Shown here: positions 1 to 3,472 of the stretch, in pieces | Numbering within the stretch: position 1 is the first letter of the stretch | Layout of the letters: every line of letters starts with the position of its first letter | NCBI GenBank assembly: GCA_029250605.1 | Contig: JAQXEZ010000014.1 | Coordinates: forward strand, 1 to 64,000 | DNA from: Candidatus Thalassarchaeaceae archaeon | Lineage (GTDB): Archaea > Thermoplasmatota > Poseidoniia > Poseidoniales > Thalassarchaeaceae | Reading direction: 5' to 3' | Length of the DNA stretch: 64,000 bases | Translations under genes and position numbers: made by a program | Notes under the pieces: model-generated | What the model was told of the DNA's origin: nothing | Databases searched by the model: none | Seen by the model: only the letters and a program-made list of their open reading frames with translations

Positions 1-54
1 TCCTTGAATAACTGACCCCTCTGAGGACCCTCTGACCTCCATACGCTTAGAGGG

Positions 55-105
55 TAGCGTGTGAGCGGTATCGCAGTCAGACGGTATCTGTGATTCGCAT
101 TGTGG
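55..105. repeat. Left arm of long inverted repeat bracketing the Fas1-HxlR gene
   Basis: This 51-bp segment matches the reverse complement of 2352-2402 with two mismatches. Within it, 62-102 is a 41-bp perfect match to 2355-2395. Weaker similarity continues inward to about 135, including a shared ctccctag block at 115-122. The two arms enclose about 2.25 kb that contain one gene. Both outer ends are followed by ggg, too short to be called a target-site duplication. Confidence 0.93.
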
Positions 106-141
106 TTAGTGGGTTCTCCCTAGAAACCCTTGAGAGCCTTA

Positions 142-179
142 GTAACACCCTTGTTACCCTTGAGTAACGAGTTTGTTAC
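142..179. promoter_or_regulatory. Phased array of four GTAAC/GTTAC half-sites (putative operator)
   Basis: GTAAC occurs at 142-146 and 164-168. Its reverse complement GTTAC occurs at 153-157 and 175-179. The four half-sites start exactly 11 bp apart and alternate in orientation, giving two adjacent GTAAC-N6-GTTAC palindromes on one face of the helix. The array ends about 15 bp upstream of the TATA-like box. HxlR/YodB-family regulators bind short palindromes of this general kind, so autoregulation by the downstream winged-helix protein is an attractive inference. Confidence 0.6.
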
Positions 180-194
180 TACCACAAACGGTAC

Positions 195-202
195 TTTATA
201 TT
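195..202 (+). promoter_or_regulatory. TATA box of the Fas1-HxlR gene
   Basis: TTTATATT is a good archaeal TATA-like box. Its centre lies about 27 bp before the ATG at 226, the usual distance from TATA box to transcription start. That predicts a leaderless or nearly leaderless transcript starting at the ATG, and it decides the choice of start. Confidence 0.55.
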
Positions 203-225
203 CTGTAAGTAGAGCATGGGGGCTT

Positions 226-2304
226 ATGTCCCGAATGAAAACGCTGTTTGTTTGCATGATCTTGGTAGCCCTTCCTGCATCTCAAGTAAGTGCTGATGTT
301 GATGAGTCGAATTCAAACCCGGAGGTAACTATTGGATTTGGCAATGTTACGAATGACACCCTGGTATTCACCATGGATACCTCTGTAGATGTGTATGTAT
401 ACCAAGTAACATTGGCTTGGGAGACTGGTGCTGTTTACTGTGGCATCTCAGGATCCGGTGGACTCTCTGAAGAACATAACTTGTTTGTTAGCGTCCTTTA
501 TGCTGGGTGTTTGACAACAGGATACTATTATGGCGCTCAGGGAAATTACTGGATCCCCTCAGGTAGTAATGATACTCTCACATCTATTTTCTATCAATCC
601 AACAGCCCTGAGGTATGCATCGGGAATGCGACCTATACAGTCATGTTACCCGATGGGGAGTTCGAAACTCGACAAGCAGACTTTGATCCCAATGATTGTC
701 TGAGTTATACTATGTATGAAAGAGAATGGCCATATGATGTATGGTATGAGCTTGATGAAAACGACAATGAATCACTCCCCACCAGTCCACTTAGATTTGA
801 CCCTGGAAATGATGTTCCGACTGTTTTGCAGGATGATGGTTCGTTCGACATTTTGATTTCCGCATTGAACATTACAGGTCTTTTGGACTTTACAAGAGAA
901 GGAAATAGCCCCAACATGGGATTCACGATGATTGCACCTACAGACGAGGCATTCCAAGACATTGGTTTTGACTTAGATGATGTGGACACGCAAGAGGAGA
1001 TAGACATCCTCACCGAGATTCTTCTACATCATACAACTATCCACCCCGAGGGGTACACTAGTGCTGTAGTTTGGTTCGGTGATGAAAATTGCACCGAAGT
1101 AGACTACGAGCTTAATGTCGGGAACGGAGAGTACGCTGAACCTGGAAACTATTCCTCATGGACCGAGACACACACTGTCTCTGATGACTGCCAGGGCAAC
1201 AGGACCATTGGTGGAGCGAACGTGACCTACTTCCAAGGAGTGTCGAATGGAGTGATAGCAGTAATTGACTCAGTTTTGATTCCCGATAGCCTAGCCTCGC
1301 CACCTCAGGCTAATGAGCCAAGGTTCAATCCTAGATCTGATATTCCAACCAATCTAGAGGATGATGGAGAATTTGGAGACTTAATGGATGCATTGGGAAT
1401 GACTATGTTGATGGACGACATTACTATCGAGAATAACTCTCAGATGGGAATGACAATTTTTGCACCAACAGATGAGGCATTTGCTGCGGCTGGAATAAAT
1501 CTTGACGACTACGAGAGTCTCCAGGAGCTAGAGGGCTTGTCTGAAATCCTCCTAAATCATATTTCATTTGACTGGGTTTTATCATTCCCTGATGAATGTA
1601 CGCCCACAGAGTTAGACATGGAAACTACAGATTCATTTTCGATAGCCATTTCAAATGATTGTGAAGGTAATATATTCGTCAATGAAGCAAAGGTTCTCTA
1701 TTCCCAAGGAGTGGAAAATGGAGTTATTATCGTCATCGATCAAATACTGATGCCAATAGAAGAAGAACCTGTGGAGGAGCCTGTGGAGGAGCCTGTCAAA
1801 GAACCAGAGATAGAATTTGAAAATACTGGAGGACCCGGTGCCGATGCCGAAGCATCGAGCGAATCTAGTTTGGTGCCCAGAACTACGATGGTTCTTGGAG
1901 GATTAGCAATTATCAGTATGTTAGTTATTCTAATTGGAACGGCAGCAGGGACCTCCAAACGGAATCGTATGGAATCCATAACGGAAGAAGATACCCCTGA
2001 TGTAGATGATTTACTAGTGTTACTTTCACGATCAAAAATGGTTCAAATTATTCGCGTACTACATTCAGCGGAAAATCCGATAAGATTTACAGAACTAAAG
2101 GAAAGAGTTGACACATCTTCGACAACCCTTACCAGAAGACTAGGTGAATTAGAGGATTACCAATTGGTTGAGAGAACTGAACTTCAGACAGTCCCAGTCA
2201 CTGTAGCGTACAAGCTGACAGACTCAGGATCAGCATTATTGCCTAGTCTAGAGTCGTTTTTCGAGTGGGCAATTGAAGAAAGCCCCGAGGGTGTTCCAAA
2301 CTAA
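226..2304 (+). CDS. Membrane-anchored Fas1-domain protein with cytosolic HxlR-type winged helix
   Basis: This 692-residue protein is a probable one-component transmembrane transcription regulator. An N-terminal signal peptide (residues 1-25, ending ASQVSADV) is followed by a Cys-containing domain of unknown family (about 30-185, four cysteines). Two fasciclin/Fas1 domains follow (about 190-353 and 366-510), each with the block APTDEAF. Next come a Glu/Pro/Val repeat linker (512-531), one membrane helix (about 554-575) and a C-terminal winged helix (about 594-685). The winged helix resembles HxlR: it has FTELK, a recognition-helix region TTLTRRLGELE, and a wing followed by YKLTDSG. Fas1 domains usually mediate adhesion or ligand binding, while HxlR proteins are normally small and soluble. 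The start at 226 fits the TATA box; an ATG at 235 is also possible. Two rows counted by hand gave 42-43% GC, against about 70% in the carboxylase genes to the right. The regulatory role is inferred. Confidence 0.8.
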   Translation: MSRMKTLFVCMILVALPASQVSADVDESNSNPEVTIGFGNVTNDTLVFTMDTSVDVYVYQVTLAWETGAVYCGISGSGGLSEEHNLFVSVLYAGCLTTGYYYGAQGNYWIPSGSNDTLTSIFYQSNSPEVCIGNATYTVMLPDGEFETRQADFDPNDCLSYTMYEREWPYDVWYELDENDNESLPTSPLRFDPGNDVPTVLQDDGSFDILISALNITGLLDFTREGNSPNMGFTMIAPTDEAFQDIGFDLDDVDTQEEIDILTEILLHHTTIHPEGYTSAVVWFGDENCTEVDYELNVGNGEYAEPGNYSSWTETHTVSDDCQGNRTIGGANVTYFQGVSNGVIAVIDSVLIPDSLASPPQANEPRFNPRSDIPTNLEDDGEFGDLMDALGMTMLMDDITIENNSQMGMTIFAPTDEAFAAAGINLDDYESLQELEGLSEILLNHISFDWVLSFPDECTPTELDMETTDSFSIAISNDCEGNIFVNEAKVLYSQGVENGVIIVIDQILMPIEEEPVEEPVEEPVKEPEIEFENTGGPGADAEASSESSLVPRTTMVLGGLAIISMLVILIGTAAGTSKRNRMESITEEDTPDVDDLLVLLSRSKMVQIIRVLHSAENPIRFTELKERVDTSSTTLTRRLGELEDYQLVERTELQTVPVTVAYKLTDSGSALLPSLESFFEWAIEESPEGVPN
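1765..1806 (+). repeat. 12-bp tandem repeat in the periplasmic linker
   Basis: Three 12-bp units start at 1765, 1777 and 1789, followed by half a unit. They encode repeated Glu-Glu-Pro-Val between the second Fas1 domain and the membrane helix. Such acidic Pro-rich stalks are extended spacers and can change length by slippage in steps of four residues without a frameshift. Confidence 0.85.
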
Positions 2305-2351
2305 CACGTTCAATGGGACCCCTCAATGGTCTGCTAGGGAGGACCGTCAGA

Positions 2352-2402
2352 CCCCAATGCGAATCACAGATACCGTCTGACTGCGATACCGCTCATACGC
2401 TA
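2352..2402. repeat. Right arm of long inverted repeat bracketing the Fas1-HxlR gene
   Basis: This is the partner of 55-105 in inverted orientation. The perfect core is 2355-2395, and weaker inward similarity reaches about 2318. It lies about 50 bp after the stop codon of the Fas1-HxlR gene and about 90 bp before the DUF1737-like gene. The right arm falls outside any convincing coding sequence. Confidence 0.93.
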
Positions 2403-2493
2403 GGGAATCACTACCGAGCAGTCACTCAGTGGGAATGCAACAGAACCTCGCTCATGCGATGCCTCCTTCAACTGACAGCGAGTGCGCGGCTTG

Positions 2494-2685
2494 ATGGAAT
2501 ACAAGATGGTGACTGCGGGAACCCGCGAAAACGGGGGCCAAGGAGTGAAAGAGGACAGCGTGGAGCTGGTGGCAGTGTTGGACGCTAAGGTCAAAGACGC
2601 CATCAGACTTGGATGGCGACCGGTCGGCGTCGTCGTCACAGGTCCAGATGGTAGATTGAACCAGACGATGGTCAGAGTGCGCTGA
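2494..2685 (+). CDS. DUF1737-like small protein
   Basis: This protein has 63 residues and begins MEYKMVTAG. The pattern is a short strand (EYKMVTA), an amphipathic helix (VELVAVLDAKVKDAIRLGW), then RPVGVVVTGPDG and a final strand ending NQTMVRVR. It resembles DUF1737, a small family of unknown function whose members typically read 'YKVVTA...L...V...I..GW.P.GG......QAMV'. It lies between the right inverted-repeat arm and an AT-rich convergent gap. Its base composition matches the GC-rich genes to its right rather than the Fas1 gene. An upstream start at 2482 is possible, but ATG 2494 fits the family N-terminus. Confidence 0.6.
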   Translation: MEYKMVTAGTRENGGQGVKEDSVELVAVLDAKVKDAIRLGWRPVGVVVTGPDGRLNQTMVRVR

Positions 2686-2968
2686 GGTCAAGCCGGCTCA
2701 CTCCCAGCGCCTCGAGGGAGGCAATAGACCCAGTGACGAATATATGGGCCTCCATTCAATCAACCGTGGTCACTAGGGTTACCCATACTCCCAATAAACT
2801 ACCCCTATTAGACAGGGTTCGGACTCACACGCTAGTCTCTTTTCCTATGATGCCTTATTACTACACCAACAATTGAAGAAAAAATGATAATTATGAATAT
2901 CAATGGCGGGTCATTGATTGGGATATTTTTGGTAGCAAGTCCATTCTTGTTCTGAAATGTTCCCTACC
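2686..2968. other. AT-rich convergent intergenic region
   Basis: This gap lies between the DUF1737-like gene (plus) and the biotin carrier gene (minus). It turns AT-rich after about 2780, with short A and T runs at 2876-2886 and 2923-2932 that could end transcription from both sides. A 23-codon hydrophobic reading frame at 2884-2955 was considered and not accepted. No RNA gene or other repeat was seen. Confidence 0.5.
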
Positions 2969-3472
2969 TCATTCAATGGGCTTGATCTCCACCAGCGAGG
3001 ACCCCATGTCCACCCTGTCCCCTTCGGAGAAGTGGACCTTGGTTATCTCCCCGGGCTTGGGAGCGAGTATCTTGTGCTCCATCTTCATCGCCTCCAGGGT
3101 CATCAGGTGCTGCCCCTCTCGTACCCTCTGGCCCTCCTTGGCCATGACCTGGAGTACGGTCCCCGGCATCGGGGCCTTGAGGCTGCCCTCGTTGGAGGAT
3201 GCCTTGCTGCCCTGCTCGTGGAAGAGGACCTCGTGGGCCCTGCCGTCCATGTGGACCCACCACGTGTCCCCGGTCCTGGTCACGTGGGCCAGCTTGGACT
3301 CCCCCCCGACCCTGACTGTCACCCTGCCCGGCTTGCCCTCCGCCTCTACCGATGTCTCGGGGATGTGGGCCTCGGTGCCGTCCCTCGTTAGCGAGGTGAT
3401 GGAGACCGAGCCCTCGCTCTCCTGCAACGAGGCCTTGTACCTCTCCTGGCGGTCGGGAACGCTCCACTCCAT
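2969..3472 (-). CDS. Biotin carboxyl carrier subunit of methylcrotonyl-CoA (acyl-CoA) carboxylase
   Basis: This 167-residue protein carries the biotin that shuttles carboxyl groups between the biotin carboxylase and the carboxyltransferase. The C-terminal half is a biotinyl domain with the motif EAMKMEH, making Lys130 the predicted biotinylated residue, preceded by APMPGTV. The N-terminal half (about 15-90) has beta-rich sequence with WWVHMDGRAHEV, like the domain that joins the biotin carboxylase and carrier parts in fused MccA/PccA proteins. The gene starts 9 bp after the biotin carboxylase gene ends, so the usual single alpha subunit is encoded here as two proteins. Confidence 0.9.
   Translation of the reverse strand: MEWSVPDRQERYKASLQESEGSVSITSLTRDGTEAHIPETSVEAEGKPGRVTVRVGGESKLAHVTRTGDTWWVHMDGRAHEVLFHEQGSKASSNEGSLKAPMPGTVLQVMAKEGQRVREGQHLMTLEAMKMEHKILAPKPGEITKVHFSEGDRVDMGSSLVEIKPIE

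Follow-up and report, generated by a model that had tools for sequence, protein, structure and literature searches.

A doubled GTWAC element before a transmembrane fasciclin–HxlR gene in marine Poseidoniales as a probable self-operator

Upstream of a gene that joins fasciclin domains, a transmembrane helix, and an HxlR-type winged helix, we identified an array of four GTWAC half-sites which, at a probability of about 80%, represents the autoregulatory operator of the encoded transmembrane one-component regulator, with one HxlR dimer predicted on each pair of half-sites, two dimers in all, and activation as the probable outcome. The array lies in a 64,000-nucleotide stretch of DNA, hereafter the window (forward-strand positions 1 to 64,000 of contig JAQXEZ010000014.1, assembly GCA_029250605.1), from Candidatus Thalassarchaeaceae archaeon, whose assembled genome spans 1.48 Mb at 86% completeness. 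Gene regulation in the uncultured marine Poseidoniales (MGII) is, to our knowledge, very poorly understood. What is new here, judging from sequence, is a predicted doubled HxlR operator before a transmembrane fasciclin–HxlR gene, together with a letter code that depends on the recognition helix; no report of this operator was found in the open-access literature.

The half-sites GTAAC (142–146), GTTAC (153–157), GTAAC (164–168), and GTTAC (175–179) start exactly 11 bp apart, as an earlier note on this DNA had described, and form the tandem of two GTAAC-N6-GTTAC pairs that it had also proposed: a distal pair, or dyad 1 (GTAAC-ACCCTT-GTTAC, 142–157), which aligns with GTTAC-N6-GTTAC in four relatives, and a proximal pair, or dyad 2 (GTAAC-GAGTTT-GTTAC, 164–179), whose half-sites are identical in genomes G297, G086, G090, and G185 (no strand is assigned to either pair). 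The coordinates likewise bear out the distance claimed to the core promoter, with the putative TATA-like element TTTATATT (195–202, + strand; assigned by eye) beginning 15 bp past the last half-site. The window contains two occurrences of GTAAC-N6-GTTAC, each of them in this array, and none of 100 shuffled sequences reached two; with 49 GTWAC occurrences in the window, 2e-8 chains of four at 11-bp steps would be expected by frequency, in agreement with the view that such phasing is unlikely to arise by chance. The array is also the sole four-chain in the window when all canonical 5-mers (those made of one or two letters excluded) are considered at spacings of 6–15. Elsewhere in the same genome, a single further GTWAC-N6-GTWAC was found, inside the 16S rRNA. 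An Rfam search of window positions 1–3000 returned no match, and a tRNA search found none near the array. The alternating orientation that had been read into the half-sites went too far: GTAAC is the reverse complement of GTTAC and differs from it at the centre base alone, which flips in relatives, so that the alternation is not a conserved property.

The gene behind the array (226–2304, + strand) encodes 692 amino acids from the ATG at 226, with the ATG at 235 as another possible start. Its product had been described as an HxlR-like winged helix, which PF01638 supports but which is incomplete: the protein is a fasciclin–TM–HxlR fusion comprising, in order, a signal peptide, a beta-rich domain, two fasciclin domains, a transmembrane helix (residues 553–575; 1882–1950, + strand; assigned from hydropathy alone), and a cytoplasmic HxlR winged helix (1978–2301, + strand) that contains the recognition helix SSTTLTRRLGELE (2116–2154, + strand). 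The winged helix scores 47.3 bits against PF01638 (cut-off 20.8; E = 1.8e-12), which places it in the HxlR family, and its structural model (pLDDT 77.5) resembles YodB, QsrR–DNA, and HxlR–DNA in Foldseek comparisons, YodB, HxlR, and QsrR being the nearest solved structures by both sequence and fold. A transmembrane transcription regulator is defined in PMC10269533 as a single chain bearing a DNA-binding domain and at least one transmembrane region, and the window protein combines PF01638 with the helix at residues 553–575 and an N-terminal signal segment in just this way. Its N-terminal domain (~160 aa, window 226–780) is without a Pfam match and is present in two copies in G185, G297, and G063; the corresponding model is all-beta, at low confidence (mean pLDDT 56). 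The centre of the TATA-like element lies ~27 bp from ATG 226, a distance which suggests that the transcript is probably leaderless.

The N-terminal domain of the fusion was found in 8 of the 318 Poseidoniales genomes searched for it, and the array is kept before orthologues in two families. Four exact GTWAC half-sites are present in the window genome, G297, G086, G090, and G185, three plus a GTTTC in G117, and two plus GTTGC and GTTTC in G063; in G027, from the window's own genus, the region has decayed (GTTCC, GTTAC, GTGAC, GCTAT) and the winged helix is truncated by the end of the contig. Linkers and upstream flank have diverged between orthologues while the half-sites stay. The orthologous upstream regions, which the earlier note had named as the place to look, thus retain both half-sites and intra-pair spacing, with exact half-sites in five of eight loci and one or two changes in two of eight. 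Site 1 reads GTAAC in the window and GTTAC wherever else it is exact. Spacing inside each pair is 11 bp at all eight loci (with decayed half-sites in G027), and the last half-site stands 14–15 bp from the TATA-like box in all eight, whereas the spacing between pairs is 11 bp in five loci and 12 bp in G297, G185, and G027 (a gap of 7 rather than 6). Exact 11-bp phasing of all four half-sites, as originally proposed, therefore holds in the window and at four of the seven other loci but gives way to 12 bp between pairs elsewhere, and the invariant unit, by sequence comparison, is the 16-bp pair GTWAC-N6-GTWAC, repeated twice. The window protein shares 76% identity (across 522 aa) with its counterpart in G090, from another genus, and 61% (across 513 aa) with that in G027, from the same genus; the inter-pair spacing shows the same split. 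The gene thus does not follow the species, and its operator seems to move with it. The window and the other fusion loci were found to have no neighbour gene in common.

A search with the winged helix across 193 Poseidoniales genomes gave 105 matches in 64 genomes, of which 97 came with a locus (the other 8 were left out) and some are near copies. Within 320 bp upstream of these 97 genes, GTWAC pairs were spaced at 11 bp in 37 cases, 22 bp in 6, and 33 bp in 4, with at most 3 pairs at any other spacing up to 60 bp, and 39 distinct pairs yielded the consensus tGTWACAnnnnTGTWACc. On a tree of 93 domains (4 further fragments excluded), the exact pair was found in the fusion clade, in a soluble clade of ~133 aa, and in several divergent soluble clades; soluble HxlR genes mostly carry one pair.

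The letters of the operator appear to follow the recognition helix. We distinguished class B (helix I-T-A/S-T-T-L), class C (helix S-A-T-S), and class A, of the S-S-T-T type, to which everything neither B nor C was assigned; the GTATC class was defined after viewing the first gene set. In that set, with at most one mismatch allowed and, as in the second set below, each gene counted irrespective of kinship, class-A genes carried GTWAC pairs in 42/74 cases and GTATC pairs in 3/74, and class-B genes in 0/18 and 17/18 cases, respectively; shuffled sequences gave 1.25, 0.35, 0.3, and 0.05 for these class-A and class-B counts. The class-B clade lacks GTWAC pairs, and GTATC-N6-GATAC occupies the equivalent position. 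A pair within one mismatch is missing from 32 of the 74 class-A genes (for a few of them, the upstream region falls within a fragmentary gene), so the operator is not universal in the clade. Since class B had been noticed within the first set, a second, out-of-sample set of 52 winged-helix genes was fetched, all from genomes outside the first sample; it excludes the G297 fusion and at least two second matches (G267, G279) and includes one gene with merely 41 nt upstream. Here, GTWAC pairs preceded 25/31 class-A genes (21 exact) and 0/17 class-B genes, and GTATC pairs 1/31 and 15/17 (5 exact), while other spacings from 8 to 14 reached at most 5/31 in class A and 1/17 in class B. A class-B gene with an exact site was also found in G323, which belongs to the same taxonomic class but lies outside the order. 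Neither operator was seen before the four class-C genes (of five) that had upstream sequence in the first set, nor before three class-C genes in the second; these HxlR proteins are ~246 aa long, with helix SATSLSRRL (e.g., loci L129, L131, and L134). The window's own genome also encodes a soluble class-B HxlR gene (contig C3, L041 705–1097) with GTATCTTAGTCGATAC upstream, a putative second self-operator with different letters in the same genome. Taken together, the conserved array, the pairs before soluble HxlR genes, and the letters that follow the helix argue for the autoregulation by the encoded HxlR protein that the earlier note had suggested.

We infer binding, cooperativity, the sign of regulation, and the signal along the following lines. 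Each 16-bp GTWAC-N6-GTWAC would serve as a palindrome that accommodates a single HxlR-type dimer, whose two recognition helices would sit one helical turn apart; in the HxlR–DNA structure, the reading helices are 34.8 Å apart (PMC7835342), which is about one helical turn and fits palindromic half-sites at 11-bp spacing. The window would offer two such dimer sites on the same face of the DNA, 15 bp before the TATA of the regulator's own promoter. The fused winged helix would be tethered at the membrane beneath the extracellular fasciclin-bearing part, and two adjacent tethered dimers would bind their own promoter, with self-activation (positive feedback) once the outer domains meet a ligand or partner surface.

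As to the sign, the sites lie upstream of TATA/BRE rather than over it, which favours activation. ArnR and EarA, archaeal regulators with sites at that position, are activators (PMC6396743; PMC10665913), and the membrane-bound ArnR requires for binding both of its tandem 15-bp palindromes, which lie between −43 and −84 (PMC6396743); for these reasons we think that self-activation is favoured over repression. Repression through the same operator and the same self-regulation, with two dimers blocking recruitment or wrapping the promoter until a signal releases them, is unlikely but deserves serious consideration: the bacterial HxlR/DUF24 relatives YodB, CatR, and QsrR repress (PMC6798810), and before soluble genes ~7 bp separate the end of the pair from the presumed TATA, which places it near the BRE, yet the fusion arrays leave the core promoter free at 8/8 loci and share their position with the activators just named.

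The sites could also serve another regulator, such as a soluble class-A HxlR paralogue, the fusion being merely a target, which we consider improbable. In G063, the gene immediately preceding the fusion does encode a soluble class-A protein and has a pair of its own; in G000, G090, G086, and G297, however, the search returned no soluble class-A gene, leaving the fused domain as the sole class-A winged helix found, and the operator is intact, so that the fused protein would be the natural binder there, although the MAGs used in this argument are 52–86% complete and single absences are accordingly weak. Recognition of the array by a GlnR/OmpR-type regulator is very hard to sustain, as a search of 10 Poseidoniales genomes for PF00486 (Trans_reg_C), which we take to be the domain of GlnR, presumably an OmpR-type response regulator, found it in none, with the control positive in 10 of 14 named genomes. 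What speaks for it is the DNA, as the Streptomyces GlnR box has the same layout, GTnAC-n6-GTnAC repeated as a-b-a-b (PMC10704036). Chance, or shared promoter ancestry without function, can scarcely be credited either: orthologous promoters do share descent and some rows are near copies, yet the half-sites persist while linkers and flanks change, four-chains are expected at 2e-8, and the identical spacing recurs with other letters in another clade.

Among known systems, ArnR/ArnR1 of Sulfolobus acidocaldarius resembles the proposed self-activating regulator in its membrane-anchored HTH and its two tandem palindromic boxes upstream of BRE/TATA (PMC6396743). According to the available part of that source, the ArnR boxes are 15 bp rather than 16 bp long, read TCGAC-N5-GTCGA, and target flaB, whereas GTWAC boxes stand here before the regulator's own gene; ArnR has an N-terminal HTH and a putative HAMP domain, in contrast to the C-terminal HTH and the fasciclin domains of the window protein, and that part reports no fasciclin portion in ArnR. 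With neither an N-terminal HTH plus HAMP nor TCGAC-N5-GTCGA boxes, the window protein is one that, on the proposed mechanism, works like ArnR without being an ArnR-type member. EarA of Euryarchaeota is likewise an archaeal winged helix, an activator with one to several TACATA repeats upstream of BRE, but differs in motif, spacing, and target (the archaellum operon), with no membrane fusion reported in the text available (PMC10665913). Bacterial HxlR, YodB, and QsrR share the Pfam family and the fold, and their dimers place the helices one turn apart on DNA; bacterial HxlR/DUF24 proteins are small and single-domain, whereas here the domain is joined to a transmembrane helix and to fasciclin domains, and the doubled operator is apparently directed at the regulator's own gene.

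We do not claim a genome-wide regulon, as additional pairs lie mostly within ORFs. In the complete genome G049, 4 of 38 GTAAC..GTWAC pairs are at 11 bp (P about 0.03; spacing 18 has 5), and one GTTAC..GTAAC pair is also at 11 bp; two of these five 11-bp pairs lie before HxlR genes, two within ORFs, and one 8 nt before a secreted-protein ORF. Across a scan of ten genomes, most other pairs examined lie in ORFs, and the window's genome has no exact pair beyond the operator and the 16S rRNA, so that the predicted regulon, judged by exact sites, is small. The sequence GTTACCCACGTGTTAC, conserved in five genomes, was considered as a second target and dropped because it is 16S rRNA in the window's own genome. 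In G059, from the sister family, the pairs at L183 1949 and L185 1856 precede ORFs for predicted secreted proteins by 37 and 12 nt, respectively, and mark possible extra targets.

On either side of the fusion gene lies a copy of a dispersed repeat, the two being inverted relative to each other (69 nt, 90%); the repeat is not part of the operator, and its left copy is at 55–123 (region 52–135) and its right copy at 2334–2402 (region 2322–2402), neither assigned to a strand. Fifteen of 28 genomes from the genus contain it, frequently with copies 0.5–2.7 kb from one another. The idea that the two copies bound a mobile element was set aside in view of this genus-wide dispersal, the absence of the repeat from the 140 nt displayed upstream of other fusion genes, and the lack of a neighbour gene common to the fusion loci. 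No viral contig match was found. Short contigs of the same genome have several other repeat families of ~130–145 bp in common, apparently intergenic (L041 1634–1779; L042 18–163 and 2960–3091; L043 111–242, 2381–2522, and 3531–3664; L044 1874–2015).

Combined into one proposal, which we put forward tentatively and at somewhat less than even odds, the SSTT helix would read GTWAC-N6-GTWAC and the ITA/STT helix GTATC-N6-GATAC, and a mobile, tethered fasciclin form with a doubled operator would act as a surface-contact positive-feedback switch. For Poseidoniales, this means that sequence data allow a regulator family to be matched with its operator. Because relatives with a different helix have a site that differs accordingly, the fit of protein to DNA is open to direct testing, and the specificity switch yields a prediction of the 16-mer to which each purified domain would bind. 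The membrane-anchored version bears extracellular adhesion-type domains, and membrane-based self-regulation in archaea becomes testable.
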